From Prevotella sp. (GTDB taxonomy: Bacteria > Bacteroidota > Bacteroidia > Bacteroidales > Bacteroidaceae), in the NCBI GenBank assembly GCA_017554145.1, contig JAFZIZ010000013.1, positions 207,685-251,611 of the forward strand: 43,927 bases of DNA. The letters run 5' to 3'. Below, one piece after another: positions 1 to 40,213 of the stretch. A model generated the notes under the pieces. The model was not told the origin of the DNA. It did no database searches and was given only the letters and a program-made list of their open reading frames with translations. Position numbers and translations under genes: made by a program. Each line of letters opens with the position of its first letter. Position 1 is the stretch's first letter.

Positions 1-3000
1 CTGGCAGTCCGCTGGCTGCAGAGATCTTTAATACAGCAGACGGACCATTGATGCACGTAGAATATCAGAAGAATCTGTATTCCGATGCCTTCGTCACTGA
101 ACTGATACACTGTTATGCCAACGTGCTTCGTTCCATGATGACAGTAGAGCGTATGACGGAGATCAACCTGCTTGATAAAGAGCAGATTGCCCAACTCGAT
201 GCTTTCAACGACACTGTCCGTCCCTACGACACGACACAAACACTGGTGAGCCTCTTCCGTAAGGCGGCTGCCCAGTATCCTGACCATCTGGCCGTCATTC
301 ACGGAGATACACAACTCACCTATCGTGAGGTGGATGAACAAACTGACCGTCTGGCTGTCTTGCTTCAAGAGAAGGGACTTGGCAGGGGTGATGTGGTAAG
401 TATTCTGATACCTCGTGGAGAATGGATGGTCATTGGTCCATTGGCCGTTCTGAAAGCCGGCTGCAGCTACCAGCCTCTTGACAGCAGTTATCCCGAAGAG
501 CGCTTAAACTTCATGATGAAGGACGCTCAGGCACGATTGCTTATCACTTCCGAAGAACTTCGTCCGAAGGTGAATGAATATGAGGGAGATGTATGGTATA
601 TTGACACTGCCATTCCATCAGACATCAAACATCATCCATCAGACATCATCCCTCAACCCTCTGATCTCTTCACACTTCTCTATACCAGTGGTTCAACAGG
701 AGTACCTAAGGGTGTACGGTTGACACACGCCAATCTGACTTGTTATATCGATTGGCACGTACATTACTATGGTTTCCGTCCAGAAGACTGCATTGGTGTC
801 TATCCCAGTTTCGGGTTTGATGCCTGCATGTCCGACCTATATTCAGCCTTATCCGTTGGAGCAAATGTATGTATTATCCCCGATTATATCCGACTCGACC
901 TACCTGCCATGAACCAATATCTGGAGGAGCACCATGTGACCCATATCAGTATGACCACTCAGGTAGGACGCCAGTTTGCATCCGATGTCGAGAACCACTC
1001 GTTACGCTACCTCTCCATGGGCGGTGAGAAGCTTATTGCCTTCCCAGTACCCAAGAACTACAAGACTGTCAATATTTATGGTCCTACTGAGAGCACCGTA
1101 CTTGTAACAGCTTATGAGGTGGTACCCGATGAGATCAACATCCCCATCGGTAAGATTGTAGATAATGTAAAAGGTTACATCGTTAGTATTGATGGTCATC
1201 GGTTACCTGTAGGTGCTGTCGGTGAGCTATGGGTTGCTGGCCCACACGTATCTGACGGCTATCTGAATCGTCCTGACAAGACGGCGGAAGTGTTTATCAC
1301 GAATCCCTTCCGTGAGAAGGATGCTGGATACGAAAGGATCTATCGGACGGGCGACTTGGTACGTTACAAACAGGATGGTAATATCGAATTCATCGGTCGT
1401 CGTGACGGACAGGTGAAGATTCGTGGCTTCCGTGTCGAACTGAGTGAGGTGGAAAGAATCATCCGTGAGTTCCCAGGTATCAAGGATGCCACTGTAGCAG
1501 CCTATGATCATCCGAGTGGCGGCAAGTTCCTGACAGCCTATGTAGTGAGCGATGAGCAGATAGATACTGCTGCCCTTGCTGACTTCATTCTCAGTCAGAA
1601 GCCACCCTATATGGTACCTGACGTCACCATGCAGATAGAACGTATTCCTTTGAATCAGAACCAGAAGGTAGATAAACGTGCACTGCCGAAACCTGAAGTG
1701 AATGTTGCAGCAGAAGATGACAGCAACCGTCCGTTGAATGTACTGGAACAGGAATTGCAGAACATCACTGCCAAGGTGATAGGCATCGATAGTTTCAGTG
1801 TGACGACACCTCTCGTGCACCTCGGGCTCACCTCTATCCTCAGTATCAAACTGGCAACCCTACTCTACAAACGTTTCGGTATAGAAGTCCAGTCGAAGAT
1901 GCTACTCAGTGGTGCCACTATTGAAACACTGGAGAATCAGATTTTACAGAAATGGATGCAGGGAGAGACCACACAGGATGACTCACCTCTCACCCCTCAC
2001 CCCTCAAAGGCTACGGGTAGGCGCGACAGCGGGAATCCTCTCACCTCCTCCCCGCTCTCCTTCCCCCAGACGGGTGTTTACTACGAATGCATGAAGAATC
2101 CTGCCAGTGTTGTCTATAACATTCCCACGATGCTACGTTTCGAGAAAGATACAGACATCCATCAACTCGAAACAGCCGTAAAAGCCATTGTGGAGGCACA
2201 TCCTACGTTACATACACACTTCGAGATGACGGAAAATGACGTCATGCAAGTACGTAATGAGGATACAGAGACTCTTGTCGAGCAGTTCACCATGACAGAA
2301 GAAGAACTCACTGCCTACAAGCGTGAGTTCGTACGTCCCTTCCATTTAGCGACGGGCCCACTCTGTCGTTTCGCTATCGTCAGCACCCCTGAGGCTGTTT
2401 GTCTGCTGACAGACTTCCATCACCTTGTCTTCGATGGTTCTTCGATGGATCTCTTCATCCAACAGTTGAGTATGGTGCTGGAGGGTGCTACCATCGAGAA
2501 AGAACGCTATACCTACTTCGACTTTGTCGCTGACGAGAAACGCTTTGAGACCTCCGATGATTTCGAGGCCAACCGTCAGTATTATGCCACGATGCTTGCC
2601 GATTTCGAGAGTGCCAGTGAACTGACTGCCGATCTGAAGGGGAAGGAAGATGAGGGGCAGATGCAGACCGTTGCTTCACCCCTTGATATGGATGCTGTCA
2701 GCCACTATGCCCAACAGCAGGAAGTCACCCCTGCGGCAGTGATGTTGGCTGCTATCTTCTACACGGTAGCACGTTATACTGCCGATCATCGTGTTTACCT
2801 GTCGACAATCAGTAATGGCCGTAGTGATATACGTATCGCCGAGAGTTTCGGTATGTTTGTCAATACGCTGCCCTTGGGTATCTCCATCGCTGACCAGACC
2901 GTCAACACCTTTGTGCATCAGAGCGCAGAGGTCTTCAGTGGTGTCATCGAACATGAGAAATACCCCTTTGCCCGCGTCGCCACTGATTATGGCTATGCAC

Positions 3001-6000
3001 CGCAAATCGTCTATGAATATCAGTTGGGCGTCATCGGAAAGATGAACGTGCCAGGTCTCAAAGGCTTGGAGGGACTACTGCAGAATTCTGTCAAATTCAA
3101 GCTCTCCATCCATATTGAGATGAGGCAGGGACAGCCATGTGTCGTCCTATATTACAACGATGCCCTTTATAGCCGTGAGTTGATGGACGGTATGGCTCGC
3201 AGCATTGTCATTGCCACTGAACAGATGATCAGACAAGGCGAACAGCCTGTCAAGACGATAGAACTGATTGACGACGAGCGTGCCAAGCAACTGGAACAGT
3301 TCCATACCGTTGCGCTGGCTGAGCCACGCTTCCATTATTTCCATGAAGGAATAGAGCGTTTCGCGAAAGAGCGTCCTGACCATCAGGCACTGATTGCTTG
3401 TGATGCAGCGTTCACGTATTCAGAGTTGAACACCTGTGCCAATCGGATAGCCAACGGTCTGTTAGCTCATGGTGTGGCACCACGCAGTCGTGTGGCTCTG
3501 CTCTTACCCCGTACCTCACGCGTCATCCTCTCTATGTTTGGTGTGATGAAAGCCGGATGTGCCTATATCCCCTGTGACCCTGAATATCCCACAGAGCGCA
3601 TCCAACATATCCTCACAGACAGTCATGCTACTTATATCATTACAACGGCCGACCGCCTGAAGGACTTCGACAACGCCATTGATGTGGAAGAATTGCTCAC
3701 CTCTCACCTCTCACCACTCACCCCTCACCATGATATCACCCCTCAAGACCTGGCTTACCTCATCTACACCAGTGGTTCTACAGGTAAACCGAAGGGTGTG
3801 ATGCTGCGCCACGAGAGTATCGCCAACTACCTGACAGATCATCCTGCCAATAGTCATATCCACGCGCTGGCTACAGAGGCTCATACGCTACTCTCTGTCA
3901 CCACGGTATCCTTTGATATGTCGCTGAAGGAGATTGGTGCAGCCCTCTTCAATGGTCTGACACTGGTATTGGCCAGCGAGGAACAGACGACCAATCCGAT
4001 GCTTCTGGCAGATCTCTTCAAGCAGACCCATGCCGATGCCTTCAATGCCACACCGTCGCGTATGCTCCAGTATATGGAACTGCCTGCCTTCCAGGAGGCC
4101 ATCGCAGACTGTAAGGTGCTGATGTGTGGTGGTGAGAAATATGCCGACGGTCTGCTCGACAAGTTGCGGAAGGCAGCACCTAAGGCTCATATCTTCAACA
4201 CCTATGGACCTACGGAGATTACGGTCTCGTCGAATGCGAAAGAGCTCACTCATACCGATCGTATCAGTATCGGGCGCCCGTTGCTCAACGTCACGGAGTT
4301 CATCGTCGATAAGGATGGTAACGAACTGCCACAGGGTGTGGTTGGCGAACTGTATATCGGAGGACTGGGTGTCGCCTCTGGCTATAACGATCTGCCTGAG
4401 ATGACTGCAGAGCGCTTCGTTGACTACAAGGGTATCCGCATCTACAAGTCGGGCGACTATGCCCGTTGGACACCAGAAGGTGACGTTGTCACTCTGGGAC
4501 GTACCGACAACCAGATCAAGTTACGTGGTCTGCGCATCGAACTGGGCGAGGTAGAGGCGGCCATAGCTGCCGTAGAAGGCATCAAGAATGTCGTTGTCAA
4601 GATTGGCAAGATAAAGGGTACGGAACATCTCTGCGCCTACTTCACTGCCGACCATGAGGTGGATATCCCAGAGCTGAAACAGGAGTTGGGAAAGACCCTC
4701 ACCAAGTATATGGTACCTACCGCCTACCTGCAGTTGGAAAAGATGCCACTCACACCGAATGGCAAGACGGATATCAAGTCACTGCCAGAGCCCGAACTGG
4801 CCGCTGGTGGTGCTTATGAGGAACCTGCCAACGAGACCGAGCAAACCATTGCCGATATCTTTGCGAAGATTCTCGGTATAGATCGTGTCAGCGCCACCGA
4901 CAGCTTCTTTGAACTCGGCGGCACATCACTTGTCGTTACTCGCGTCATCATTGAGACCGACAAGGTAGGACTAAAGGTGGCCTATGGTGATGTCTTCGCC
5001 CATCCGACACCTCGTAAACTGGCCGACTTCATTCTGGGTATCAACGGGGATGACAAGAAAGCCGACGAGCTGTCAAACTTCGATTATACGGCCATTGACA
5101 ATATGTTGCAGCGTAACACACTTGCTAACTTCCGTACAGGAGAACGCCAGCCGTTGGGTAATGTACTGTTGACAGGTGCTACAGGCTATCTGGGCATCCA
5201 TATCCTGCACGAGCTCATCGATAGCGATGCTCAGAAGATCTATTGTCTGGTACGTGGTAAGACGCAGGAAGCAGCAGAGAGTCGTCTGCGCTCCCTACTC
5301 TATTATTACTTTGCCAATGCCTATAAAGATTTGTTCAACAAGCGCATCTATGTCGTTCTTGGCGATGTGACGGAAGACCTCTGCTCTGTGGTCGGCAATT
5401 CCATCGCCGACATCACCACGGTCTTCAACTGCGCTGCTATCGTCAAGCATTTCAGTGAAGGAACGGAGATTGAGGATGTGAACATCGGTGGTGCCAAACG
5501 CTGTGTGGAGTTCTGCCTCCAGACGGGCGCCCGTCTGATTCAAGTATCCACTGCCTCCACACGAGGTCTGTGGACTGGCGAGATCAAAGACGAGATCTTC
5601 AGTGAGCAACGCCTCTATATGGGACAGTTCCTTGGCAATAAATACATCTATTCGAAATTCATGGCCGAACGCCTCGTCCTCGATGCGGCTGCCCTTCATG
5701 GCCTGAGTGCGAAGATCATGCGTGTAGGCAACCTCTCTGCACGCAGCACCGATGGTGAGTTCCAGGCGAATTTCTCTACCAACACATTCATGGGGCGCAT
5801 CAAGGTTTACAATATGTTAGGCTGTTGTCCCCACGAGATGCGCGATAGTCAGGTGGAGTTCTCGCCCATCAACGAGGTGGCCCATGCCATCGTGCTGTTG
5901 GCTACCACACCGAAGGAGTGTTGCGTGTTCCATCCGTACAACAACCATAGCGTACTTCTCGGGGATGTACTGAGTGAGTTGAAATGTGTAGGTGATGGTG

Positions 6001-6260
6001 TTCAGTTCGTCGAACTGGGCGAGTTCTCTGCAGCTCTCAAACAGGCGGAGGAAGACCCGCAGAAGGCCAAGGAGCTCTCCAGCATGCTCGCCTACCAGAA
6101 TATGTCTGGTGGTCAGAAGTCTTCCGACGTAGCCCGTAAGAACGTCTATACCATGCAGGTGCTCTACCGCCTCGGTTTCCACTGGTCGCCCACTTCATGG
6201 GATTATATCGACCAGTTCCTCAGTGCCATCAGTGGTTTTGGATATTTTGAGAAAGAATAA
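1..6260 (+). CDS. Nonribosomal peptide synthetase, C(partial)-A-T-C-A-T-reductase, left-truncated
   Basis: The reading frame is open to the left edge, so the start lies outside the window; the first ~60 residues are the tail of a condensation domain. Order seen: adenylation A1 (A3 motif YTSGSTGVPKG at 681-713, A5 NIYGPTE near 1071, A8 near 1395-1440); carrier T1 (LGLTSI, phosphopantetheine Ser at 1833); condensation C2 (HHLVFDG at 2418-2438, intact HHxxxDG); A2 (A3 near 3759, A5 near 4197); T2 (LGGTSL, Ser at 4926); terminal thioester reductase (TGATGYLG at 5172-5195, YxxxK at 5643-5657). All core catalytic motifs are present, so it should add at least two residues and release the product reductively as an aldehyde or alcohol. 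The downstream PaaK-like gene follows after 25 bp in the same operon. Repeat insertions lie in A1, the T1-C2 linker, A2 and the reductase. The product is unknown. Confidence 0.95.
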   Translation, partial: GSPLAAEIFNTADGPLMHVEYQKNLYSDAFVTELIHCYANVLRSMMTVERMTEINLLDKEQIAQLDAFNDTVRPYDTTQTLVSLFRKAAAQYPDHLAVIHGDTQLTYREVDEQTDRLAVLLQEKGLGRGDVVSILIPRGEWMVIGPLAVLKAGCSYQPLDSSYPEERLNFMMKDAQARLLITSEELRPKVNEYEGDVWYIDTAIPSDIKHHPSDIIPQPSDLFTLLYTSGSTGVPKGVRLTHANLTCYIDWHVHYYGFRPEDCIGVYPSFGFDACMSDLYSALSVGANVCIIPDYIRLDLPAMNQYLEEHHVTHISMTTQVGRQFASDVENHSLRYLSMGGEKLIAFPVPKNYKTVNIYGPTESTVLVTAYEVVPDEINIPIGKIVDNVKGYIVSIDGHRLPVGAVGELWVAGPHVSDGYLNRPDKTAEVFITNPFREKDAGYERIYRTGDLVRYKQDGNIEFIGRRDGQVKIRGFRVELSEVERIIREFPGIKDATVAAYDHPSGGKFLTAYVVSDEQIDTAALADFILSQKPPYMVPDVTMQIERIPLNQNQKVDKRALPKPEVNVAAEDDSNRPLNVLEQELQNITAKVIGIDSFSVTTPLVHLGLTSILSIKLATLLYKRFGIEVQSKMLLSGATIETLENQILQKWMQGETTQDDSPLTPHPSKATGRRDSGNPLTSSPLSFPQTGVYYECMKNPASVVYNIPTMLRFEKDTDIHQLETAVKAIVEAHPTLHTHFEMTENDVMQVRNEDTETLVEQFTMTEEELTAYKREFVRPFHLATGPLCRFAIVSTPEAVCLLTDFHHLVFDGSSMDLFIQQLSMVLEGATIEKERYTYFDFVADEKRFETSDDFEANRQYYATMLADFESASELTADLKGKEDEGQMQTVASPLDMDAVSHYAQQQEVTPAAVMLAAIFYTVARYTADHRVYLSTISNGRSDIRIAESFGMFVNTLPLGISIADQTVNTFVHQSAEVFSGVIEHEKYPFARVATDYGYAPQIVYEYQLGVIGKMNVPGLKGLEGLLQNSVKFKLSIHIEMRQGQPCVVLYYNDALYSRELMDGMARSIVIATEQMIRQGEQPVKTIELIDDERAKQLEQFHTVALAEPRFHYFHEGIERFAKERPDHQALIACDAAFTYSELNTCANRIANGLLAHGVAPRSRVALLLPRTSRVILSMFGVMKAGCAYIPCDPEYPTERIQHILTDSHATYIITTADRLKDFDNAIDVEELLTSHLSPLTPHHDITPQDLAYLIYTSGSTGKPKGVMLRHESIANYLTDHPANSHIHALATEAHTLLSVTTVSFDMSLKEIGAALFNGLTLVLASEEQTTNPMLLADLFKQTHADAFNATPSRMLQYMELPAFQEAIADCKVLMCGGEKYADGLLDKLRKAAPKAHIFNTYGPTEITVSSNAKELTHTDRISIGRPLLNVTEFIVDKDGNELPQGVVGELYIGGLGVASGYNDLPEMTAERFVDYKGIRIYKSGDYARWTPEGDVVTLGRTDNQIKLRGLRIELGEVEAAIAAVEGIKNVVVKIGKIKGTEHLCAYFTADHEVDIPELKQELGKTLTKYMVPTAYLQLEKMPLTPNGKTDIKSLPEPELAAGGAYEEPANETEQTIADIFAKILGIDRVSATDSFFELGGTSLVVTRVIIETDKVGLKVAYGDVFAHPTPRKLADFILGINGDDKKADELSNFDYTAIDNMLQRNTLANFRTGERQPLGNVLLTGATGYLGIHILHELIDSDAQKIYCLVRGKTQEAAESRLRSLLYYYFANAYKDLFNKRIYVVLGDVTEDLCSVVGNSIADITTVFNCAAIVKHFSEGTEIEDVNIGGAKRCVEFCLQTGARLIQVSTASTRGLWTGEIKDEIFSEQRLYMGQFLGNKYIYSKFMAERLVLDAAALHGLSAKIMRVGNLSARSTDGEFQANFSTNTFMGRIKVYNMLGCCPHEMRDSQVEFSPINEVAHAIVLLATTPKECCVFHPYNNHSVLLGDVLSELKCVGDGVQFVELGEFSAALKQAEEDPQKAKELSSMLAYQNMSGGQKSSDVARKNVYTMQVLYRLGFHWSPTSWDYIDQFLSAISGFGYFEKE
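615..663 (+). repeat. 7-bp tandem array inside NRPS A1 domain
   Basis: Seven contiguous heptamers (CCATCAG, ACATCAA, ACATCAT, CCATCAG, ACATCAT, CCCTCAA, CCCTCTG) lie in frame shortly before the A3 motif. The translation repeats every seven residues (PSDIKHH, PSDIIPQ, PSDLFTL). Confidence 0.85.
1981..2009 (+). repeat. 7-bp (CTCACC-type) array in T1-C2 linker
   Basis: Units ACTCACC, TCTCACC, CCTCACC, CCTCAAA run in frame through the linker between the carrier and condensation domains. After a GC-rich spacer of about 26 bp, a more degenerate C/T-rich continuation runs from about 2036 to 2059. Confidence 0.8.
3695..3729 (+). repeat. 7-bp (CTCACC-type) array inside NRPS A2 domain
   Basis: Five contiguous units (GCTCACC, TCTCACC, TCTCACC, ACTCACC, CCTCACC) are followed by a partly degenerate tail to about 3747. 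The array sits just before the A3 motif, the same domain position as the array at 615-663 in A1. Confidence 0.85.
5391..5411 (+). repeat. 21-bp palindromic element, copy 1 (reductase domain)
   Basis: Arms GTCGGCAAT and ATCGCCGAC around a 3-nt loop, with one mismatch in the stem. It reads VGNSIAD in frame. Confidence 0.7.
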
Positions 6261-6285
6261 AAAAGGAAAGGTAAAAAAGTAAAAG

Positions 6286-7635
6286 ATGAAGACGATAGAC
6301 ATGCAAGAAGCTGTACGGTTGGTGGCAGAGGGAACGACCCTCTCACCTTCCGAGCGCCTTGAGTTACAGCAACAAAGACTGCGCGAACTGGTCGGCTATG
6401 TTCGTGAACACTCCCCCTATTTCGCCAAGCTCTATGCCGACCTGCCAGACAACTTCACATTGGCAGACCTTCCATATACAGAGAAGCCCACGCTCCTTGA
6501 GCACTTTAACGACTGGGTGACCAATCGCGAAGTGACACTGGACGGTGTACTGAAATACGTCAGTCGTCCCATCAGCGATCATAGTCGTCTTTTGGCTAAG
6601 TACTCGGCCCTGTGTACCAGTGGCTCCACAGGCAATCCCTTGCCGATGGTCCGTGATGAATACCATAACAATATCCATGGGGCGATGATGATGCTACGAC
6701 TTAACAAAGGTGTCGATCGGGAGATTCTCAATATCTCACGCCACAAGGTAGCCTCTGTCATCCACACTGCTCCCACAGCCTCTTCCTATAATGCTTTCCT
6801 GCGCACACAGGCACAGTTCCCACAGGCAGCAGACAATATGTTGGCGCTGAGCGTGATGGAGAATATCGATGATATCGTGAAGAAGCTGAACGACTTCCAA
6901 CCCGAGATGCTGTCAGGCTATGCCTCCTCAATACTCCTGTTGGCGCTGGAAAAGGAAAAGGGACATCTGAACATCCCCGTCAAGCTGATTACCAATTCAG
7001 CAGAGTTGCTCTCCGAAGAAGTCTATGAGCGTATCCACAAGGCCTTCGGCTGTCCTGTCCTCAACAACTATTGTATGACGGAAGGTGGCGAGATAGCGAT
7101 GACCAACGGCTGTCCACATCTGCATCTGAACGAAGACTGGGTCATCGTAGAACCTGTCGATGCCCAGAAGCGTCCTATGCCTGTAGGCAGCGAGGCGTTC
7201 AGCGAAGGTATCTTCATCACTGACCTCAGCAACTACATTCAACCCATCATCCGTTACTATGTGACTGATCGTGTGCGCATCCTTCCGTCTGACTGTCAGC
7301 AGTCACCGTTACCTATCCTTCAGATTGATGGTCGCGTGTTCGAGACCTTCACCCTCTGCGGCAAGAGTTTCACCATGCTCTCCATCCATGCCAAGGCGGA
7401 GATATGGCCTGGTCTGCTCAAATTCCAAGTAGTACAGACAGGACCTGACACGATGGAGCTGCGTGGCGTCTGTGCTGCCGATGCCAATCCCGACAGCGTG
7501 CTTAGCTCACTGGCTGAAAAGCTACAGACCTACTTCCGTCAGAACGGCTGCGAGGGAGCCATCTTCACCTACAGCACTGAACCACTCCTCTATAACGCCC
7601 GAGGCGGAAAGATTCCCCGTTATATATACAAATAA
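6286..7635 (+). CDS. PaaK/CapK-like adenylate-forming enzyme
   Basis: 449 residues, the usual length for phenylacetate-CoA ligase (PaaK)/CapK-type enzymes. The P-loop-like motif CTSGSTGNPLP is seen near 6612, and a family-typical NNYCMTEGGE segment near 7062. The C-terminus resembles the small mobile subdomain of the family (ARGGKIPRYI). Such enzymes activate a carboxylate as the acyl-adenylate and pass it to CoA or another thiol. The gene sits between two NRPS genes (25 bp after the first, 10 bp before the second), so it probably activates an acyl or aryl starter or tailoring substrate for the pathway. It has no fused carrier domain, so transfer must be to CoA or in trans. The substrate cannot be read from the sequence. 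Confidence 0.85.
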   Translation: MKTIDMQEAVRLVAEGTTLSPSERLELQQQRLRELVGYVREHSPYFAKLYADLPDNFTLADLPYTEKPTLLEHFNDWVTNREVTLDGVLKYVSRPISDHSRLLAKYSALCTSGSTGNPLPMVRDEYHNNIHGAMMMLRLNKGVDREILNISRHKVASVIHTAPTASSYNAFLRTQAQFPQAADNMLALSVMENIDDIVKKLNDFQPEMLSGYASSILLLALEKEKGHLNIPVKLITNSAELLSEEVYERIHKAFGCPVLNNYCMTEGGEIAMTNGCPHLHLNEDWVIVEPVDAQKRPMPVGSEAFSEGIFITDLSNYIQPIIRYYVTDRVRILPSDCQQSPLPILQIDGRVFETFTLCGKSFTMLSIHAKAEIWPGLLKFQVVQTGPDTMELRGVCAADANPDSVLSSLAEKLQTYFRQNGCEGAIFTYSTEPLLYNARGGKIPRYIYK

Positions 7636-7645
7636 AGAGAACAAT

Positions 7646-10600
7646 ATGAAGACCTATCCTTTGCTCCAATCACAACTCGGTGTTTTTTACGACTGCCTGA
7701 AGTTTCCGAAAGTCATGCAGTACAACTGTCCGAGTATCACACAGCTGACAGACGGTGTTGACTTGGATCGTGCAGAAAAAGCTCTACAGACCATCTTTAC
7801 CGAAAGGCAAGAGTTGAAAATCCGTTTTTTGATCGATGAGAATGGGGAACCCCGCCAGTTTGTCGACGAGACGAAAAAACTGACTATCATACGCCGAGAG
7901 ATGACGGAAGACGATTTCCAGCATTATGCACATCACGACTTCTGCCGTCCCTTCGACATCATGGGTGAAGAGCCACTGATACGTGTGGAATTGATCACCA
8001 CTCACGAATCTCCACTCACCACTCACCACTCACCTCTCACTTACATGCTATTGGACATCCACCATCTAGTGACTGACGGCACGAGCTATTTAGTGCTGTT
8101 CTCACAACGCGACCTACCACTGGCCTACGAGGGCAAACCATTACCCGTTTGGGAGTATGGTATGTTGGAGGCTGCAGAGGATGAGGCTGCATGCTTGGGC
8201 AACGAGGAATACAAGCGCGCCAAAGCTGTGATAACGGAAAAATATGCCGGTGTGGAACTGGCATCACTGTCGTCACACCCAGAGAACCCCGTGGGCGAGA
8301 TGGGACAGGAGTCAGCCTATATCAACCGTGCGATGGTCGACGGATGGTGTCAGGAAAACGGTTTTGCGCCCTACCAACTCTTCCAAGCAGCATTCAGTTA
8401 TGTGCTCGCAAGAATCGTTCGTGAGGAGAAGGTGGCATATACCACCGCTTATCACGGACGTCGCGACCCGCGTGTCAAACAAGCCTACGGTATGTTCGTA
8501 CGCACCATCCCGTTTATGATGGAAATCAAGAAGGAGCAGACCGTTCGCGACTACATCGCCAGTGTCCATCAGGAGATGAAGGACACGTTATCTCAGTTGG
8601 CATATCCCTTCTCACATATCTGTCGCGACCTGGGTTTACAACCTGGTATCTCGTTTAATTTTTCAGCACTGCCAGGTTGGGAAGAAGCCTTCCATTTCGG
8701 CAACGAGCACTGTCCGTTGGTACAGCAGGATCGTGGTGATGTTTTCTACGATATGCTGGTTCATATCTTCCTAGCCGACGACAATTACGACATCCGTATG
8801 GAGTCGAGCCTGACAATGAATACCCGCAAACAGATGCGTACGATGGCAGATGCCATCAAAGCCACGATGGAGCAGATGATGGCACAACCGGATGCAGCCA
8901 TCAATAGCATCAGCATCGTCAGCGACGAGGAGGCTGAGCGTATCATTAAGATCGGTACGGGTAAGGAGATTGACGTCGATATCAGCAAGACCTTTGCCAA
9001 TCTCTTCACCGAACAGGCTCATCGCACCCCTGATGCACCTGCTGTGGTGGATAAGGACAGCCAACTGACCTACGATGAGATGGATCGCTATTCGAATGCA
9101 TTGGCACGTCGGTTGATAGACTTTGGTGTACAACCCGATGACTTCGTGTGTGTCATGCTCGACCGCAAGAAGGAGTTTCCGCTCTCTGTTCTCGCCATCC
9201 ATAAGGCAGGTGCTGCCTATACCCCACTCGACTTCGAATATCCCAACGAACGACTGAGTTACATGCTGGAAAACTCGGAGTCGAAAGTGTTGATTACCAC
9301 CCATGATGTGCTGGAGGCCAAGATAAAAGAGGGCGATTTCAGTACCGCTGCTGCTAAGACATTCTTCATCGATGATTTCATGAATAATGTGGTCGGCGAT
9401 TCTATCGCCGACACCTTCGACGCCATCGATTTATCTTCTCCCGACGGTCTTGCCTACATGATCTACACCTCTGGTTCTACGGGTAAGCCCAAGGGAGCTA
9501 TGCTCCATCAGGCAGGTCTGCGTAACTTCATCGCAGTAGTCATCGATATGGAGCAATTGACAGCCAATGACCGCATCAGCGGACACCGTTCATTCTCGTT
9601 CGATGCGCATATCGAGGATATGTACCCTGTACTTACACTGGGCGGCTCATTCCATATCATGCCCACGGAGATTCGCAAGGACCTGAGTGCCATCCGTCAG
9701 TTCCTCTTCGATCACCAAATTACGGGTGGTGGATACTCGACGGCGATGACCTGTCTGTTGCTTAACACCTTCGACGACCTGCCCATCCGCTTTACCACAG
9801 GTGGTGGTGAGAAGATGGACGGCGTCTATAGCGACCACATCGAGATTATCAATGTCTACGGTCCTACTGAGTGTACTGATGACACCTCTTATTATAGCAT
9901 CGCCCCAGGTCTGCGGGCAGAAAATATCCCTATCGGACAGAGCGTCGCAAACAACTGGAACTTTATCGTCGACACCGCTGGACACCTCGTACCACAAGGC
10001 ATAGCAGGAGAACTCTGTTTTGCTGGTATACAAGTAGGACGCGGCTACTGGCGATTGCCAGAACGCACTGCCACATCGTTTGTCGATTGTCCGTTCGTCA
10101 AACAAGACCGTTGGGGACGACCAGTACGTATGTACCACACGGGCGACCTCTGTCGCTGGAGTGATGACGGTCAGATAGAATATCTCGGTCGCATCGACAC
10201 ACAAGTCAAACTGCGTGGCTTCCGCATCGAACTGGGTGAGATTGAAAGTAAAGCCTTGAATATCGACGGTATCCGTCAGGCTGCTGCCGAGGTGCGTAAG
10301 GTGCAGGGCAACGAACATCTGGTGCTTTACTATACTGTGGTCGATGGCAAAACCATCGACAGCGATAACATCGCCACCACCCTCAAAGCCTCTTCGCTGG
10401 CTGAATACATGGTACCTGATGCTTATATGCGTCTCGACACCATGCCTATGACACCCAACGGCAAAATCAATCGCAAGGTGCTACCTATCCCAGAACTGAA
10501 GCGCGCCACCGAATATATCGCACCTGAAGGTGAGACGGAGATACTCTTCGCCCGCATCTTCTCCGAGGTACTCGGCATTGAACAGGTCGGTGCTCTTGAC

Positions 10601-11992
10601 GATTTCTTCGAGATTGGCGGCACCAGCCTCAATGCTATCAAGGTGATTGTCGAAGCGAGCAAACAAGGCGTACAGATTGTGTTCAACGACCTGTTTAATC
10701 AAAAGACCCCACGAGCCCTTGCTGCCTTCGTAAACAGTAGCGAGGCAGAAACCACAACAGGTCCCGTAGTCGGCGATTCTGTTGCCGACACTCCCGTCGA
10801 TACTCCTGAGGATACCCACTACGCTCCGCTTAATGCTCTTCTTAGCAGTAATAATCTTGACGCTTTCCGCAACGGTGAACGCCAACCCATTGGCGACGTA
10901 TTGCTGACAGGAGCCACGGGCTATCTGGGTGTCCATATCCTCAACGAGTTGCTCTCTAACTATGATGGACATATCCTCTGTCCCATCCGTGCCAAGGGCG
11001 ATGAAGAGGCTTTAAGCCGTTTGAAGACCATGTATTTCTATTATTTCGGAAAGACCGAAGCCTTTAAGCACTTTGACAAGCGTGTCACCGTCTTCGTGGC
11101 TGAAGTGACGCAGCCCGACGCCCTTGAACATCTCAGTGAAAAGTTGACCGTTGTCAATTGTGTGGCGAATGTGAAACATTTCTCTGCCGGCAACGACATC
11201 GAGATGGTGAATATCGAATCTGTACGCCATCTGATTACCTTCTGTCTGCGCACAGGTTCGCGCCTCATCCATATCTCTACCAACAGTATTGCAGGACTGA
11301 GTGTAGATGGTGTACCAGGTCCTGATGTAAAACTCACGGAACAGACGCTCTGGCTGGGTCAGAATATCGATGAGAACAAGTACGTCTATTCGAAATACAA
11401 GGCGGAGGAACTGGTACTCGACGCTATCGAGAAACAAGGGCTGAATGCAAAGATCATGCGTGTGGGCAACCTCTCTGCCCGCCAGAAGGATGGTGAGTTC
11501 CAGATAAACTTCAACACGAACAATTTCTTGGCGCTGCTGCGTGCCTACGTCGTCATCGGTATGGTACCCTACAACGAACTCAGCCACGTTTTCGAGTTCT
11601 CACCCATCGACGAGGTAGCCCATGCCATCATGCTGCTCGCCACCACACCGAAGGAGTGTACTGTATTCCATCCCAATAATGTCCACCGTCAGTATCTGGC
11701 AGATATCCTCAACGGTTTTGCTGCCGCTGGCATCACGTTGCGTCGTGTCGAGCTGGAGGAGTTCCAACAAGCCCTCGACCGGATGATGGAGAATCCCGAA
11801 CTGGTTACGCTGCTACGCCCGCTGATGGCCTACAACCTCAGCAGCACGCACGTCATGCGCTGGATAGAGTCCGACAACGAGTACACCACTCAGGTGCTCT
11901 ACCGCCTCGGTTTCCAGTGGTCCTCCACTGCCGCCGACTACGTCCATCGTTTTGTCGACACCATCGTCGGCTTCGATTACTTCACTACCTAA
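7646..11992 (+). CDS. Nonribosomal peptide synthetase, C-A-T-reductase
   Basis: 1448 residues from the ATG at 7646, which lies 10 bp after the upstream stop; the frame continues further upstream but only across the end of the previous gene. Domains: condensation (HHLVTDG at 8060-8080); adenylation (A3 IYTSGSTGKPKG at 9461-9496, A5 NVYGPTE at 9851); carrier (IGGTSL, Ser at 10625); terminal thioester reductase (TGATGYLG at 10907-10930, YxxxK at 11381-11395). The N-terminal C domain implies that an acyl or peptidyl donor comes from another protein, or that the domain acylates. This is the second reductase-terminated synthetase in one operon, so two reduced products or a convergent assembly are possible. 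A heptanucleotide array lies just upstream of the HHxxxDG codons, and 21-bp palindromes lie in the A domain and in the T-R linker. Confidence 0.95.
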   Translation: MKTYPLLQSQLGVFYDCLKFPKVMQYNCPSITQLTDGVDLDRAEKALQTIFTERQELKIRFLIDENGEPRQFVDETKKLTIIRREMTEDDFQHYAHHDFCRPFDIMGEEPLIRVELITTHESPLTTHHSPLTYMLLDIHHLVTDGTSYLVLFSQRDLPLAYEGKPLPVWEYGMLEAAEDEAACLGNEEYKRAKAVITEKYAGVELASLSSHPENPVGEMGQESAYINRAMVDGWCQENGFAPYQLFQAAFSYVLARIVREEKVAYTTAYHGRRDPRVKQAYGMFVRTIPFMMEIKKEQTVRDYIASVHQEMKDTLSQLAYPFSHICRDLGLQPGISFNFSALPGWEEAFHFGNEHCPLVQQDRGDVFYDMLVHIFLADDNYDIRMESSLTMNTRKQMRTMADAIKATMEQMMAQPDAAINSISIVSDEEAERIIKIGTGKEIDVDISKTFANLFTEQAHRTPDAPAVVDKDSQLTYDEMDRYSNALARRLIDFGVQPDDFVCVMLDRKKEFPLSVLAIHKAGAAYTPLDFEYPNERLSYMLENSESKVLITTHDVLEAKIKEGDFSTAAAKTFFIDDFMNNVVGDSIADTFDAIDLSSPDGLAYMIYTSGSTGKPKGAMLHQAGLRNFIAVVIDMEQLTANDRISGHRSFSFDAHIEDMYPVLTLGGSFHIMPTEIRKDLSAIRQFLFDHQITGGGYSTAMTCLLLNTFDDLPIRFTTGGGEKMDGVYSDHIEIINVYGPTECTDDTSYYSIAPGLRAENIPIGQSVANNWNFIVDTAGHLVPQGIAGELCFAGIQVGRGYWRLPERTATSFVDCPFVKQDRWGRPVRMYHTGDLCRWSDDGQIEYLGRIDTQVKLRGFRIELGEIESKALNIDGIRQAAAEVRKVQGNEHLVLYYTVVDGKTIDSDNIATTLKASSLAEYMVPDAYMRLDTMPMTPNGKINRKVLPIPELKRATEYIAPEGETEILFARIFSEVLGIEQVGALDDFFEIGGTSLNAIKVIVEASKQGVQIVFNDLFNQKTPRALAAFVNSSEAETTTGPVVGDSVADTPVDTPEDTHYAPLNALLSSNNLDAFRNGERQPIGDVLLTGATGYLGVHILNELLSNYDGHILCPIRAKGDEEALSRLKTMYFYYFGKTEAFKHFDKRVTVFVAEVTQPDALEHLSEKLTVVNCVANVKHFSAGNDIEMVNIESVRHLITFCLRTGSRLIHISTNSIAGLSVDGVPGPDVKLTEQTLWLGQNIDENKYVYSKYKAEELVLDAIEKQGLNAKIMRVGNLSARQKDGEFQINFNTNNFLALLRAYVVIGMVPYNELSHVFEFSPIDEVAHAIMLLATTPKECTVFHPNNVHRQYLADILNGFAAAGITLRRVELEEFQQALDRMMENPELVTLLRPLMAYNLSSTHVMRWIESDNEYTTQVLYRLGFQWSSTAADYVHRFVDTIVGFDYFTT
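7993..8041 (+). repeat. 7-bp (CTCACC-type) array inside NRPS C domain
   Basis: Seven contiguous heptamers (GATCACC, ACTCACG, AATCTCC, then ACTCACC three times, TCTCACT). Translation repeats SPLTTHH. It ends 18 bp before the HHxxxDG codons. The homologous segment in the C domain of the upstream synthetase is about nine residues shorter and lacks the repeat. Confidence 0.9.
9392..9412 (+). repeat. 21-bp palindromic element, copy 2 (A domain)
   Basis: Perfect 9-bp inverted repeat, GTCGGCGAT and ATCGCCGAC, around the loop TCT. It reads VGDSIAD in frame, upstream of the A3 motif. Confidence 0.8.
10769..10789 (+). repeat. 21-bp palindromic element, copy 3 (T-R linker)
   Basis: Arms GTCGGCGAT and GTTGCCGAC around TCT. 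As RNA, the 9-bp stem is retained through two G-U pairs. It reads VGDSVAD in frame and is followed by a short DTPx repeat in the linker. Confidence 0.75.
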
Positions 11993-12037: not shown

Positions 12038-12059
12038 TATCATATTGTTTCCTTAGAGT

Positions 12060-12932
12060 TTAGAGTTCAGCGTCTGAGCACTGGAAGGTGTTACCTTTCG
12101 AGATATCACCTGTCTCAAGACCGAGTTTGAACCACTTCATGCGCTGCTTGGAAGTACCGTGGTTGAACGACTCAGGAACGGCATAGCCACGAGCCTTCTT
12201 CTGGAGATAGTCGTCACCAATCACCTGTGCACACTGGATAGCTTCTTCGATATCACCATCCTCCAAAGAACCGAAGCGTTTGTTGTCATGATGTGCCCAA
12301 ACACCTGCATAGAAATCGGCCAGCAACTCCAAACGGACACTGAGCTTGTTGGCTTCCGTCTGACTGACCTGTGACATCTGTTGGTGAACCTTCTGAAGCG
12401 TTCCTGTGAGATACTCGACATGGTGTCCTACCTCGTGGGCGATGACGTAGGCATAGGCGAAGTCACCATCGGCACCCAGTGATTTCTTCATCGTGGTGAA
12501 GAAAGAGAGATCGATATACAGTTTCTGGTCGCCAGAGCAGTAGAACGGACCCATCTGGGCAGAGCCCTGTCCACAAGCCGTCTGCACACCACCTGTGTAG
12601 AGCACCATCTTAGGAACCTGATACTGGGCACCATTCTGCTTGAAAATCTCCGTCCATACATCTTCTGTACCAGCGAGAATCTGCGTAGAGAACTTTGCCA
12701 GCTCCTGTTCTTCCTCCGTGAACTCACGCTGACCTTCCGTCACCTCTGTATTGCCTCCGAAGGAATTCTGCTGTACCTCCTGCATGACAGCACTCAGTGG
12801 GTCACCACCAGAGAGCCATGCCATCAGTGCTACTATGATAATACCACCGATACCAAGACCGGCCTTTGCACCGCCACTCATACCACGACGGTCTTCTACA
12901 TTCGAGCTTTCGCGTCTTCCATCTAGTCTCAT
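12060..12932 (-). CDS. Neutral zinc metallopeptidase (YpfJ-like family)
   Basis: 290 residues. There is a short charged N-terminus, then one membrane segment (about residues 26-41, glycine- and isoleucine-rich), then the metallopeptidase domain. The zinc motif HEVGHH (HExxH) is seen in the middle of the protein, and a downstream ELLADFYAG segment fits the third ligand region. A conserved-looking CGQGSAQMGPFYC stretch matches the neutral zinc metallopeptidase (Zn_peptidase_2) family. The topology suggests a membrane-anchored enzyme with its catalytic domain outside the cytoplasm. The substrate is unknown. It lies between the NRPS operon and the phosphopantetheinyl transferase but on the opposite strand from the NRPS genes, so a link to the pathway is only positional. 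A TAccTTTG promoter lies about 40 bp upstream. Confidence 0.88.
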   Translation of the reverse strand: MRLDGRRESSNVEDRRGMSGGAKAGLGIGGIIIVALMAWLSGGDPLSAVMQEVQQNSFGGNTEVTEGQREFTEEEQELAKFSTQILAGTEDVWTEIFKQNGAQYQVPKMVLYTGGVQTACGQGSAQMGPFYCSGDQKLYIDLSFFTTMKKSLGADGDFAYAYVIAHEVGHHVEYLTGTLQKVHQQMSQVSQTEANKLSVRLELLADFYAGVWAHHDNKRFGSLEDGDIEEAIQCAQVIGDDYLQKKARGYAVPESFNHGTSKQRMKWFKLGLETGDISKGNTFQCSDAEL

Positions 12933-27675: not shown

Positions 27676-29027
27676 AATGTGTTAGCCTTGAAAAACTTCT
27701 CCAGCTTCTTCAGGTTCTTCTCATGGGAGAACACCATCACTGAGTCGCCTGCTTGGATCTGAGTGCCACCATTGACAAGGATGCCTTCGTTGTTGCGAAC
27801 CAGTCCACCAATGGTAGTTCCGAATGGCAATCCTAAGTCCTTCACTGGTTTCTTGGTGACCTTCGAACCTTCTGCTGCGATAAACTCAGCTACATCGGAG
27901 TCGACCATCATCAGGGAGCGTACATTGCTGACATCAGCATCGAGCATCATCTGGTAGATATGGCTGGCTGCCACTGTCTTCTTATTGATAATCGTACCGA
28001 TATCCAGACTCTCCGCCATATCGACATAGTCGAGGTTCTCTACCATCGCCACCGTCTTCCTGACACCCAGTCGCTTGGCTGTCAGACACGCCAGAATATT
28101 CGTCTCTGCATTCCCTGTCAGAGCGACAAAGGCCTGCGTCGTCTCGATACCCTCCTCCTGCAACAAGCCGAGGTCACGACCGTCGCCATGAATCACCATC
28201 GTATCAGTATCGCTCAACAGTTCATTCAATTGTTCACAGCGACGCTCACTCTTCTCGATAATCTTCAGGTTCATATACTCTGGGATGGTAAGACCAACAC
28301 GTACGGCTGTCTTGCCACCTCCCATGACGATGACATTCTTCACGTCGGCATAATGTTCCTTGCCGGAAAGTTTACGCACATAGGGGATATACTCGCTGGT
28401 GGTCATGAAATAAGCAAGGTCATTGACCTTCAACTCATCCATACCACTGGGAATCAGCGTCTCACCAGCACGTTTGATAGCCACGATATGATAAGGGTCG
28501 TCAGGACCACAGAGGTTCTTCAAAGGCTGGTTCAGTATCTCACACGTCTCACGCAGCTTCACACCCAGCATCACCAGTGCACCGTCATGCACATCCCAAC
28601 GCTGGCGCACCCACGACATTTTCAGACCATTGGTGATATCATGTGCAGCCAATACCTCCGGATAAATGAGGGAGTTGATACCAATCTCCTCGAAGAACGG
28701 TTTCAGATGAGGTGCCAGATACTCGTAGTTGTCGATACGCGCCACTGTTTTTCTGGTTCCCAACGCATGAGCAATGCTACATGCGTTCATGTTCTTACTC
28801 TCATCGGGGGTAACACCCACAAACAAGTCGGCAGAGTCAGTACCTGCATCTTTCAATATTTTGATGCTGGTAGGCGATCCCTGAATGGTCATGATGTCGT
28901 ACTTGCTGTCAAGACCAGCCAGACGAGTGGGGTCCGGATCAATCAACACGCAGTCCTGATGATCGCGCGAGAGTAGTTTCGACAGGTGAGTTCCTACGGC
29001 GCCTGCACCGGCTATCACTATCTTCAT
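27669..29027 (-). CDS. trkA: Trk system K+ regulatory subunit TrkA
   Basis: 452 residues from the ATG at 29027 ([12 protein letters not shown]); six extra in-frame residues further upstream overlap dxs and are unlikely. Two tandem RCK units are visible: the first begins with [13 protein letters not shown] (GxGxxG NAD site), the second with [14 protein letters not shown], each followed by a TrkA-C-like domain. It is the cytoplasmic nucleotide-binding gate of TrkH. The start overlaps the dxs stop as ATGA, and the stop overlaps trkH by 7 bp, giving a dxs-trkA-trkH transcript. Confidence 0.96.
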
Positions 29028-30943
29028 ATACTTGGCTGTTGGCAAATAGCTTTAATGATACTATCTTTATCGAGTCCAACGATATGCTGCAACTCGTCTA
29101 CTGTTCCATGCTCCACAAACTCCGTGTCGGGCATTCCGAGACGAGTGATACGAGGGCTGTAACCATGGTCGCTCATCCATTCGAGGACTGCAGAACCCAG
29201 TCCGCCACTCTTCACACCATTTTCCACGGTGATGATATGCTTGAACTTCTTGGCGACCTCCTCAAGGATATCTTCATCAATCGGTTTGAGGAAACGCATG
29301 TCGTAATGGGCTACGCTTGGCACTTGGCTCTTGGCATTTGTCTCTTGGCTAATAGCTAACTGCAAATCGCTAATAGCCTGTGTAACATTATTACCTATCG
29401 GACCAATGGAGAGGACGGCGACATCGTCACCGTCGTGTAACTTACGACCGGTTCCCACCTTGATTTCCTCCAAAGGACAACGCCAGTCGAGCAACACACC
29501 ACCACCTCGCGGATAACGAATGACAAACGGACCTTTGTCAGGCAGTTGGGCCGTGTACATCAGACGACGCAACTCATGCTCGTCCATCGGAGAGGCTATC
29601 GTCAAATTGGGAATGGGACGAAGAGCCGCTAAGTCGAAGGCTCCATGATGCGTAGGACCGTCCTCTCCGACGATACCCGCACGATCGAAACAGAACACCA
29701 CATGGAGGTTGAGCATAGCGACATCATGGATGATATTGTCGAAGGCTCGCTGGGAGAAGGCACTATAGATATTACAGAAGGGTATCAGTCCGTCTTTCGC
29801 CATACCACCGGAGAAGGTGACGGCATGACCTTCGGCAATACCCACATCGAAAGTGCGGTCGGGCATCTCCTTCATCATGATATTCATCGAACAACCTGAC
29901 GGCATCGCAGGTGTCACACCCACAATCTTGGGATTTTGCTTTGCCAGTTCCAAGAGCGTATGTCCGAAGACATCCTGATATTTCTGAGGTTTGTTGGGGT
30001 CTTTATCCACCAGTCGCTCACCCGTCTCCGGGTCGAACTTACCAGGTGCATGCCACGTAGTGACATCTTTCTCTGCAGGGGCATAACCATGACCTTTCTG
30101 CGTGTGGAGGTGTAACAGCTTAGGACCTTTCATGTCCTTCAGCTGATAGAGGATGCGCACCAATTCCTTGATGTTATGTCCATCGAAGGGACCGAAGTAT
30201 CTCACGTTCATACCGTCGAAGATATTCTGCTGATGGGCAATGGCACTCTTGATAGCATTCGACAGACGCTGGATACCTTTCTTCCGATCGTCAGGCATCA
30301 GACCTTTGTTGTGTAGCCAGCGTGTCGTCCTGAACTTGATGGCATTATAGGTCTTGTTGGTGTTCAGTCCCAGCAGATATTGCTTCATACCACCTACAGA
30401 ACGGTCGATAGACATATTATTGTCGTTCAGGATGATCAGCAGGTCGTTGGGCGAGGAAGAGACATTATTCAGTCCTTCGAAGGCAAGACCACCACTCAGT
30501 GCACCGTCACCAATCACAGCCACCACATGACGGTCGTTCTTTCCCTCCAACTGAGCAGCTACCGCCATACCCAACGCCGCAGAGACGGAGTTGCTGGCAT
30601 GACCGCAGGCAAAAGTGTCGTATTCACTCTCCAAGGGAGAGGGGAAGGGACGGATGCCTCCTAACTTACGATTGGTACAGAACTGTTCACGACGCCCCGT
30701 CAGAATCTTATGGCCGTAAGCCTGATGGCCTACGTCCCATACGATACGGTCCTCCGGAGTGTTATAGACATAGTGCAGAGCCACTGTGAGTTCCACGACA
30801 CCCAAACTGGACGCAAGGTGTCCTGGATTCACGGAGAGTTCTTTCACGATATCGTCGCGAAGCTCCTGACATAGTTCTGGAAGTTGGTCGACCGGCAACT
30901 TACGTAAGTCGTCGGGATATTTGATGTTATTGAGTAATTCCAC
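29024..30943 (-). CDS. dxs: 1-deoxy-D-xylulose-5-phosphate synthase
   Basis: 639 residues. Thiamine diphosphate site [19 protein letters not shown] with NDNNMSI, and the transketolase pyrimidine-binding [15 protein letters not shown], are intact. It makes DXP from pyruvate and glyceraldehyde-3-phosphate, the first step of the MEP isoprenoid pathway. In the C-terminal domain, just before [11 protein letters not shown], there is a segment encoded by nine 7-bp units (29315-29377) that reads as [21 protein letters not shown]. It is coupled to trkA by ATGA. A promoter lies at 30967-30974. Confidence 0.96.
29315..29377. repeat. 7-bp array (CTTGGC then TAATAGC types) inside dxs
   Basis: Nine contiguous heptamers on the plus strand: GCTTGGC, ACTTGGC, TCTTGGC, ATTTGTC, TCTTGGC, TAATAGC, TAACTGC, AAATCGC, TAATAGC. 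63 bp, exactly 21 codons. Confidence 0.9.
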
Positions 30944-39281: not shown

Positions 39282-40181
39282 ATGAAAAAGATTCGCGCTG
39301 CCGTCGTCGGTTACGGCAACATTGGTAAGTTTACCATCGAGGCTCTCGAGGCCTCAGCCGATTTCGAAATTGCAGGAATTGTACGCCGTAACGGAGCAGA
39401 AAACAAGCCCGCAGAACTCGCTCCCTATGAGGTAGTGAAGGATATCAAGGAACTGAAGGATGTCGATGTAGCCATCCTCGCCACTCCTACCCGTTCTTGC
39501 GAGGAGTTTGCCAAGCAGATACTTCCTTTAGGCATCAATACCGTCGATTCATTCGATATCCACACCAATATCCGTGGCTATCGTGAGCGCCTGATGGAAA
39601 TCAACAAACAGACAGGTACTGTCAGCGTGATTGCTGCCGGATGGGACCCAGGTTCTGACTCTATCGTCCGCACCCTCATGCAGAGCTTGGCACCGAAAGG
39701 ACTCTCCTATACCAACTTCGGACCTGGTATGTCGATGGGACACAGCGTCTGCGTACGCTCTAAGGCAGGTGTGAAGAACGCCCTTTCCATGACCATTCCT
39801 TTGGGTGAGGGCATCCATCGCCGTATGGTCTATGTAGAGTTAGAAGACGGTTATACGCTGGAGCAGGTAACGAAGGACATCAAGGCCGATCCCTATTTCG
39901 CCAATGATGAGACACACGTCTTCGCTGTCGAGTCAGTCGATGCTGTCAAGGATATGGGTCATGGTGTGCATCTCGTTCGCAAGGGCGTCAGCGGAAAGAC
40001 ACAGAACCAGCGTCTGGAATTCAATATGAGCATCAACAACCCCGCTCTCACTGCTCAGGTACTGGTTAATGTTGCCCGTGCTTCTATGCGTCAACAGCCC
40101 GGTTGCTATACGATGGTTGAGATTCCCGTCATCGACATGCTGCCAGGTGAGCGTGCTGACCTCATCGAACACCTCGTATAG
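39282..40181 (+). CDS. ddh: meso-diaminopimelate D-dehydrogenase
   Basis: 299 residues. NADP-binding VVGYGNIGKF at the N-terminus, VAILATPTRSCEEFA, and the substrate domain with GWDPGSDSIVRTL and NFGPGMSMGHS match meso-DAP dehydrogenase. It interconverts tetrahydrodipicolinate and meso-DAP in one step for lysine and peptidoglycan synthesis. It is a single-gene transcript, with its own promoter and a strong hairpin terminator. Its TAG stop is the first codon of a 7-bp repeat array. Confidence 0.96.
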   Translation: MKKIRAAVVGYGNIGKFTIEALEASADFEIAGIVRRNGAENKPAELAPYEVVKDIKELKDVDVAILATPTRSCEEFAKQILPLGINTVDSFDIHTNIRGYRERLMEINKQTGTVSVIAAGWDPGSDSIVRTLMQSLAPKGLSYTNFGPGMSMGHSVCVRSKAGVKNALSMTIPLGEGIHRRMVYVELEDGYTLEQVTKDIKADPYFANDETHVFAVESVDAVKDMGHGVHLVRKGVSGKTQNQRLEFNMSINNPALTAQVLVNVARASMRQQPGCYTMVEIPVIDMLPGERADLIEHLV

Positions 40182-40213
40182 TTAAAAGATAATAGTTAAG
40201 AGATAATAGTTAG
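40179..40213 (+). repeat. 7-bp (TAGTTAA/GATAATA) array after ddh
   Basis: Five units, TAGTTAA, AAGATAA, TAGTTAA, GAGATAA, TAGTTAG, run from the stop codon directly into the terminator stem. TAGTTAA is the complement of the TTAACTA found in the array at 16264. Confidence 0.85.

Follow-up and report, generated by a model that had tools for sequence, protein, structure and literature searches.

How do short tandem arrays of a single unit length, 7 bp, come to lie inside unrelated genes and between genes of one bacterial genome, and how are they renewed? The question is raised by a 43,927 bp stretch of Prevotella DNA (GenBank contig JAFZIZ010000013.1, positions 207,685 to 251,611; the whole stretch is referred to here as the window), which lies in contig 14 of a 2.8-Mb rumen Prevotella draft genome that is 83.5% complete (G000). 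An initial annotation, made from the letters of the window, had listed ten degenerate heptamer arrays in it. Our answer, which we hold tentatively and with somewhat less than even confidence, is that such arrays form a genome-wide population of short cassettes that spread in trans.

Heptamer arrays in the window and the genome

Tandem Repeats Finder (TRF) reported 26 rows for the window, with period 7 in ten, and called the array at 40178–40212 at period 14. The arrays, and a pair of promoter boxes around one of them, are listed below by coordinates and strand, with the evidence in parentheses; NRPS denotes nonribosomal peptide synthetase and ORF an open reading frame.

616–656, plus: degenerate heptamer array of CATCAGA/CATCATC units in the first NRPS gene (ORF 48–6260) (TRF)
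1982–2006, plus: NCTCACC array of 3.6 copies in the first NRPS gene (TRF)
3696–3729, plus: NCTCACC array of 4.9 copies in the first NRPS gene (TRF, lag scoring)
7995–8040, plus: ACTCACC-class array of 6.6 copies in the second NRPS gene (ORF 7463–11992) (TRF, domains)
12053–12067, no strand: weak TTAGAGT tandem of 2.1 copies over the stop codon of a Zn_peptidase gene (12060–12932, minus) (TRF)
15562–15595, minus: ACTCACC-class array in an AAA_30/UvrD_C_2 helicase gene (14801–16240, minus) (TRF, lag scoring)
16249–16307, no strand: facing −7 boxes CAAAGTTA ... TATCTTTG, 43 bp apart, around the array at 16262–16293 (box scan)
16262–16293, plus: AACTATT array in the helicase/DUF3822 promoter spacer (TRF, lag scoring, relatives)
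17487–17515, plus: ACTCACC array in a variable loop of rsmD (17224–17790) (TRF, relatives)
18317–18340, minus: ACTCACC array in a variable loop of a cardiolipin synthase-like gene, cls (17762–19189, minus) (TRF, relatives)
29316–29349, minus: AGCCAAG-class array in the C-terminal part of a DXP synthase gene (29024–30943, minus) (TRF, ORF)
40178–40212, plus: TAGTTAA-class array holding the stop codon of a DAPDH_C-domain gene (39282–40181) (TRF, ORF)

The period-7 rows have the limits given above except at 616–648, which is overlapped by a period-14 row at 623–656, and at 15562–15592. All ten array coordinates of the initial annotation were correct to within four bases; the weak tandem at 12053–12067 was absent from its list. 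Its statement that the arrays of the NRPS, helicase, rsmD and cls genes have ACTCACC-class units in common, in either orientation to the gene, also held good (in the helicase gene the G-rich strand is the sense strand). TTAACTA units had been assigned to two intergenic sites; they are indeed shared by the arrays at 16262, in a promoter spacer, and 40178, but the latter is a gene-end array rather than an intergenic one, since it starts at the stop codon of ORF 39282–40181. Strict lag scoring of the window gave five segments at lag 7, three at lag 14, one at lag 8 and none at the remaining lags from 2 to 30. Because it recovers fewer arrays than TRF, some arrays of the window are degenerate.

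The same rhythm recurs throughout the genome. An 844 kb sample, including the window, was scored at lags 2–30 and gave 60 segments at lag 7, compared with 7 at lag 8, 1 at lag 10, 19 at lag 14, 6 at lag 16, 10 at lag 21, 7 at lag 22, 1 at lag 23, 2 at lag 28, 3 at lag 30 and none at any other lag. The controls were these other lags, arrays in non-coding DNA and third-order Markov sequences of a 444-kb part of the sample, which gave a mean of 0 segments at every lag (three replicates). The period-7 signal thus lies well above the other lags and the Markov sequences, and the heptamer family is dispersed genome-wide, as had been proposed; the accompanying view that a codon-level effect is unlikely is likewise supported. 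A looser threshold yielded 93 arrays in the same 844 kb. Over the 80 named loci kept for comparison (1.47 Mb), the closest of which comes from an uncultured Prevotellaceae bacterium (RUG14585) whose Cls protein is 91% identical, 112 lag-7 segments were found in 52 loci, with 16 each at lags 8 and 9. Three of the loci with arrays (L093, L130 and L131) come from records that are not marked as metagenome assemblies, so the arrays are not merely an assembly artefact. Array sizes are mostly 23–40 bp, or three to five heptamers, with the spectrum peaking at 31–33 bp (1.91 Mb).

On a mechanical map of ORFs of at least 90 codons, 47 of the 93 arrays lie inside ORFs, 19 across stop codons, four near ORF starts and two across a start; of the 21 intergenic arrays, 12 are beside a −7 box and nine are elsewhere. 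Internal coding arrays of the genome span 23 to 70 bp (25–39 bp in 38/46), and their sense strand is C-rich in 37/46; a cruder ORF map gave 22/31 for the genome and 48/71 for the named loci. Arrays at ORF boundaries show the opposite bias, with a G-rich sense strand in 28/34 (6/7 and 22/27, respectively). The two biases differ because the G-rich strand of the unit mostly carries a stop codon (163 of 212 arrays, compared with 73 of 212 for the opposite strand). A tandem heptamer passes through all three reading frames, and therefore insertion that is blind to orientation, followed by selection, would yield both patterns.

Spacers may be under a further constraint. The motif TAnnTTTG, which we take to be the consensus of the Bacteroidetes −7 promoter box, occurs in facing pairs (CAAAnnTA ... 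TAnnTTTG) whose spacings in the 844 kb cluster near 22, 32, 43, 53, 63 and 84 bp, a period of about 10.5 bp (resultant length 0.55, n = 81), as if divergent promoters were held in helical phase.

Unit vocabulary and turnover at orthologous sites

The initial description of one unit class plus a second understates the diversity of the arrays: the 93 arrays of the genome carry 47 distinct units, and 212 arrays over 3.42 Mb carry 75 (a few overlapping stretches being counted twice). One strand is almost free of G, with no G in 168 of the 212 arrays and a single G in 44; for random neighbouring heptamers the expected numbers with zero to three G are 56, 103, 49 and 4. Unrelated loci of the genome share the same unit in 142 of 4278 pairs, compared with 14.6 after composition-preserving shuffling (maximum 25 in 100 shuffles). 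At C18:12091, a site resembling that at 1982–2006 carries another unit (ACCACTC) followed by a nearly identical flank.

The units are largely genome-specific. Identical-unit pairs make up 24 of 192 pairs within genomes and 362 of 14343 between genomes, and shuffling of the genome labels gave a mean of 5.1 within-genome pairs (maximum 14 in 1000). Loci L090 and L137, from the same contigs as stretches of G035 and G007, were left out of this test, and other possible same-genome loci were treated as different genomes. The word TAAAGGTTAAAG has 48 copies in G000 and at most 23 elsewhere and is absent from 63 of 100 same-genus genomes (G000 included); its reversed control has 0 copies in G000. This mirror control is uninformative for ACTCACC, the reversed tandem being the same tandem. 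Similarly, ACTCACCACTCACC has 27 copies in G000, 25 in G089 and none in 88 of the 100 genomes, while TTTAATGTTTAATG has two copies in G000 and 24 in G081; with one mismatch allowed, the latter occurs 109 times in X. ruminicola D31d and 45 times in strain Ga6B6.

The initial annotation had suggested a comparison of orthologous sites, and there the arrays vary in both presence and unit, so that the conservation among orthologues which would have refuted its reading is not seen. The helicase/DUF3822 spacer was compared in 53 sequences, the window included; loci without both gene starts were omitted, as were L094, L095, L097 and L100 (spacer longer than 1500 bp). A lag-7 score of at least 12 was reached in 27/53, lag 9 in four, lag 8 in two and lags 5, 6, 10 and 11 in none. 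These arrays fall into ten consensus unit classes, some one step apart (e.g. AACTATT in the window, AAAATTG in L081 and AAACTCT in L083), and both AAACTCT and AAGAATT are found in either strand sense. Facing −7 boxes, both present in 52/53, are 43 bp apart in 15/27 array-bearing and 5/25 array-free spacers. The cls loop holds a lag-7 array in 12/81 sequences and the rsmD loop in 9/76, with differing units in each and none at seven other tested lags. Five cls loops have the same length of 29 residues with different units (L084, L085, L089, L090 and L091), and the other cls-loop arrays vary in length. At another promoter, the array of L094 is in the opposite sense to that of L095, and at one promoter the arrays of L110, L120, L111, L124, L103 and L095 differ between flanks that are at least 80% alike.

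Other small repeats occupy some of these sites. In seven loci (L104, L105, L153, L159, L141, L097 and L152) in-frame palindromic inserts, e.g. GGGGACAGTCCCC pairs, stand in the rsmD loop in place of heptamers, so that small repeats of more than one type land there. Locus L149 carries paired inverted heptamer arrays, about 85–100 bp long and alike in their core (GATACTCCTG-like ... GGTAATC-like), at 5244–5327, 6093–6191, 10585–10682 and 10914–11007, in frame inside dnaG- and helicase-like genes; at these sites L151 and L153 have no arrays or other unit types, with arms that by eye are sometimes still complementary.

Turnover was followed in relatives at least 78% identical, which provided 119 site comparisons with both flanks. 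By score, 55 had no array on the other side (some being near-arrays) and 64 had an array on both; the latter reduce to 43 distinct pair-and-site comparisons, which share species and are not independent. Units are often wholly different in these comparisons although the flanks are at least 80% identical. The two arrays are equal in length in 13 of the 43 and differ by 1 bp in nine, by 2 bp in three and by 3 bp in one; a difference of 7 or 14 bp occurs in none. Three comparisons differ by 84 or 147 bp owing to extra DNA outside the array, and another twelve by 4 to 83 bp. Some species that are 91–93% alike differ in having or lacking a whole array (L148/L145, L088/L083 and L110/L120). Between strains D31d and Ga6B6, 135 kb of which align at 95.4%, five arrays were found; the three scored in both differ in length by 9, 3 and 0, too few for rates, and the equal-length array at 49233 shows clustered substitutions.

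Empty sites, defined as shorter by at least 12 bp with a lag-7 score below 7, numbered 15. Their best match to the unit averaged 5.27 of 7 positions, compared with 5.18 for shuffled units, with an exact match in 1/15 and six or more positions in 5/15. Gain and loss by slippage are thus disfavoured, since gain needs a seed and loss leaves one.

Proposed spread in trans and its competitors

Spread in trans might proceed as follows. A heptamer block would arise and its variant units would be duplicated within it by slippage or unequal exchange. Single-stranded copies of the block, expected to be poorly structured because one strand is almost without G, could then pair with short matching stretches elsewhere while DNA is replicated or repaired, and be patched in, in either orientation, so that a new array is inserted or an old one replaced. 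The copying step is probably an ectopic, short-patch one acting on such a substrate; the analogy is with illegitimate short-patch recombination. A search of the open-licence literature returned nothing on short-patch double illegitimate recombination. Most events would be purged by selection, and the survivors would be arrays that lie in protein loops with a stop-poor sense strand, that end a gene and furnish its stop codon, or that fill the spacer of a facing −7 box pair and keep its helical spacing. Of the two mechanisms offered initially, seeded slippage is disfavoured as the main process by the 15 empty sites and the lack of 7 or 14 bp differences, and templated or block insertion would fit better, with in-array copying of variant units occurring as well. 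Spread in trans is also favoured by variant units common to different loci (55, compared with 6.5 after re-mutation). The clearest block copy is an identical stretch of 38 bp, consisting of an imperfect AAAGGTT array and its tail, on contig C3 of G000 at 182287 and 182797, 510 bp apart and with different flanks. There is weak evidence of local spread along the chromosome: identical units lie within 10 kb of each other in 11 cases compared with 5.35 expected (reached in 9/500 permutations), and within 3 kb in four compared with 1.91 (55/500). It is a possible, if doubtful, further step to regard the arrays as Prevotella mobile DNA that is defined by rhythm, i.e. cassettes of ~30 bp exchanged as blocks in either orientation, apparently without reverse transcriptase, which rewrite loops, C-termini and promoter spacers with units that drift between species.

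Several observations weigh against spread in trans. Copying of variant units takes place within arrays (same-column same-base pairs number 278 compared with 52 expected), and thus slippage or unequal exchange contributes. Length differences of 21 bp (L110/L121) and 42 bp (L114/L121) are those that unit steps would give. The empty sites are only 15, their change is unpolarised and the relatives are 7–24% diverged, with four of the 15 pairs above 90% identity. The variant units common to different loci were judged against a re-mutation null of uniform bases that may understate chance sharing, and agreement in their order from locus to locus barely exceeds that of unit-order shuffles (55 compared with a mean of 42.5 and a maximum of 53). 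Long block copies are therefore not generally shown. The constant length of promoter sites and part of the 31–33 bp peak may reflect selection for helical spacing. Lastly, no enzyme is established, a Y1 single-strand transposase being a weak lead.

The most direct competitor is ordinary slippage with a preferred 7-nt step followed by mutation, with arrays surviving in permissive places and the sharing of units then being due to composition or mutation bias. In most of the genomes studied, heptanucleotides are reported to be the commonest repeat class (Mrazek, 2007, as related in PMC4679880 and PMC4692102), and the duplicated variants, the 21-bp and 42-bp differences (one pair each) and the greater likeness of neighbouring units (0.75 and 1.29 mismatches at separations of 1 and 4, compared with 0.85 and 1.15 when the order is shuffled) all agree with it. 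However, the exact seed is missing at 14/15 empty sites, single- and double-unit differences are lacking among the 43 comparisons, sizes peak rather than declining from two copies, and the sharing of units exceeds composition shuffles, is genome-specific and extends to both strand senses at one site; as the whole explanation slippage appears unlikely to us. If, instead, array sites were all old and ectopic gene conversion swapped their units at constant length, one would expect what is seen in the helicase/DUF3822 spacer (43 bp in 15/27, with new units), in the five 29-residue cls loops and in the clustered substitutions at 49233. The presence or absence of whole arrays between close species, the 26/53 spacers without an array and the unequal lengths of the other cls arrays make conversion alone quite unlikely. 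Selection could also keep the 7-bp spacing of functional elements, such as protein-binding or RNA-structure sites. AATTATC arrays lie, by eye, directly upstream of a −7 box in 5/5 cases, 12/93 arrays are intergenic beside such a box and the inverted pairs of L149 could fold as hairpins; unit and strand sense nevertheless vary at orthologous sites, about half of the genomes are array-free at helicase/DUF3822 and housekeeping-protein loops hold many of the arrays, so that this reading is distinctly improbable.

Two explanations invoke a dedicated enzyme. A Y1 transposase (HUH, IS200-like or of the type associated with repetitive extragenic palindromic elements, REP) would act on single strands, which would suit G-poor cassettes. 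Y1_Tnp matches are found in 64 of 100 same-genus genomes, and in 19/21 with at least four copies of three array patterns compared with 45/79 others (p = 0.004); the figures are 13/14 and 30/50 in the 64 genomes outside the density sampling (p = 0.025), and 15/21 and 3/11 for genomes with and without a sampled array (p = 0.027). These tests are post hoc and uncorrected, without control for phylogeny, p varies between 0.03 and 0.15 at other thresholds and array-rich genomes are larger, which confounds the association. G000 has two weak matches, one of them above the cut-off, but none was found in G027 and G019, which are array-dense, or in G008 and G124, which are array-rich; furthermore, the arrays are direct repeats, unlike the hairpins typical of such enzymes, and we regard this explanation as improbable. 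A reverse transcriptase or other template-carrying enzyme that writes heptamers in a telomerase-like manner is highly improbable. The G-less strand does recall telomeric repeats, array size is fairly uniform and array-dense G006 has one RVT_1 match. In a search of 40 genomes RVT_1 was found neither in the 83.5% complete G000 nor in dense G007, G022, G027, G031, G025 and G019, and it leans the opposite way over 32 genomes (5/21 with arrays and 7/11 without, p = 0.053); tens of units per genome would also suit a single template poorly. A model in which six positions of each unit are templated and the seventh is free was rejected, as same-column different-base variants number 80 compared with 92 expected, over the 184 of 308 arrays with 2–12 variant cells. 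IMS was likewise rejected as a driver: it is nearly universal (37/40 genomes) yet was not found in G000, nor in G021 and G033, and so explains nothing.

Known repeats and distribution

The initial annotation named the short tandemly repeated repetitive (STRR) sequences of cyanobacteria as the closest analogue, and the comparison supports this. STRR sequences of Calothrix and Nostoc are degenerate tandem heptamers, with several families per genome, dispersed and mainly intergenic. The Prevotella arrays share the tandem 7-bp unit, the dispersal and the excess over other unit lengths, but half of them (47/93) are inside ORFs and orthologous sites hold different units. Cyanobacterial small dispersed repeats, reportedly treated by Elhai in 2008, are said to be very small mobile blocks of fixed sequence; here, in contrast, the period is kept while the sequence changes, and, apart from the 38-bp stretch on contig C3, it is mainly units and variants that are shared. 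REP elements and their paired form (REPIN) are palindromic, unlike these direct-repeat units that are nearly G-free on one strand, the inverted pairs of L149 being an exception. Slippage-driven repeats of the contingency-locus type should differ between relatives by whole units and show the unit locally where an array is missing, which is not the pattern here.

Heptamer repeats of other bacteria have been described in several reports. Calothrix heptanucleotides are mentioned in PMC4692102. The heptamer excess has been credited to slippage governed by polymerase geometry (Mrazek, 2007, via PMC4679880 and PMC4692102); as in those heptameric long simple sequence repeats, period 7 exceeds neighbouring unit lengths, but the seeds and ±7 changes expected of such slippage were not seen, save for a difference of 21 bp in one pair and of 42 bp in another. 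In Xanthomonas and Nostoc, GGGNATC repeats mostly have four units and vary between close species (Rehm, 2015; PMC4692102). They resemble the present arrays in being heptamers with variable consensus positions and in varying in length and sequence among relatives, and differ in their quadruplex-capable G-tracts and mostly intergenic position, where we find dozens of units, half in ORFs. TAACTGA repeats, known from Beggiatoaceae, some cyanobacteria and five Bacteroidetes (MacGregor, 2015; PMC4679880), are likewise direct heptamer repeats, but with one unit (related heptamers being rare) placed mostly just before start codons. Longer-unit repeats are described as normally or weakly over-represented in PMC4060949, the main text of which does not contain the word 'Prevotella'.

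Our search of the open-licence literature found no account of heptanucleotide repeats for Prevotella or of 7-bp tandem repeats under the term Bacteroid, none of intergenic heptanucleotide tandems in Bacteroides, nor one of unit replacement at orthologous sites without a seed or single-unit steps. The heptameric excess itself is already known; the turnover of arrays at orthologous sites seems to be new. It makes the slippage account of the excess testable, and the predictions of that account, a seed and single-unit steps, were not borne out in the comparisons at hand. If cassettes do move in trans, such very small mobile DNA would be a steady source of in-frame insertions, C-termini and promoter spacers.

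The arrays are patchy among relatives. A survey of 31 same-genus genomes, with 14–60 kb each and hence only a rough estimate of density, found G006, G007, G022, G027 and G031 to be array-dense and no array in the sampled part of G002, G005, G008, G012, G016, G017, G024, G026, G030, G032 and G034. Small samples mislead: G008, array-free in 20 kb, has 16 exact copies of TTTAATGTTTAATG genome-wide. Other families of the order gave three lag-7 segments in thirteen stretches (190 kb). The occurrence of array-rich and array-poor genomes within one genus permits a search for associated genes. Other unit lengths also appear in places: 9-bp segments exceed 7-bp segments in G004 (L214–L215; nine compared with two) and G023 (L230; six compared with one), and G015 and G034 have 8-bp tandem segments.

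In the window itself, positions 48–11992 hold the two NRPS genes, which end in a NAD_binding_4 reductase domain, the first having AMP-binding, Condensation and NAD_binding_4 domains; a gene for an ACPS phosphopantetheinyl transferase is located at 12988–13809.

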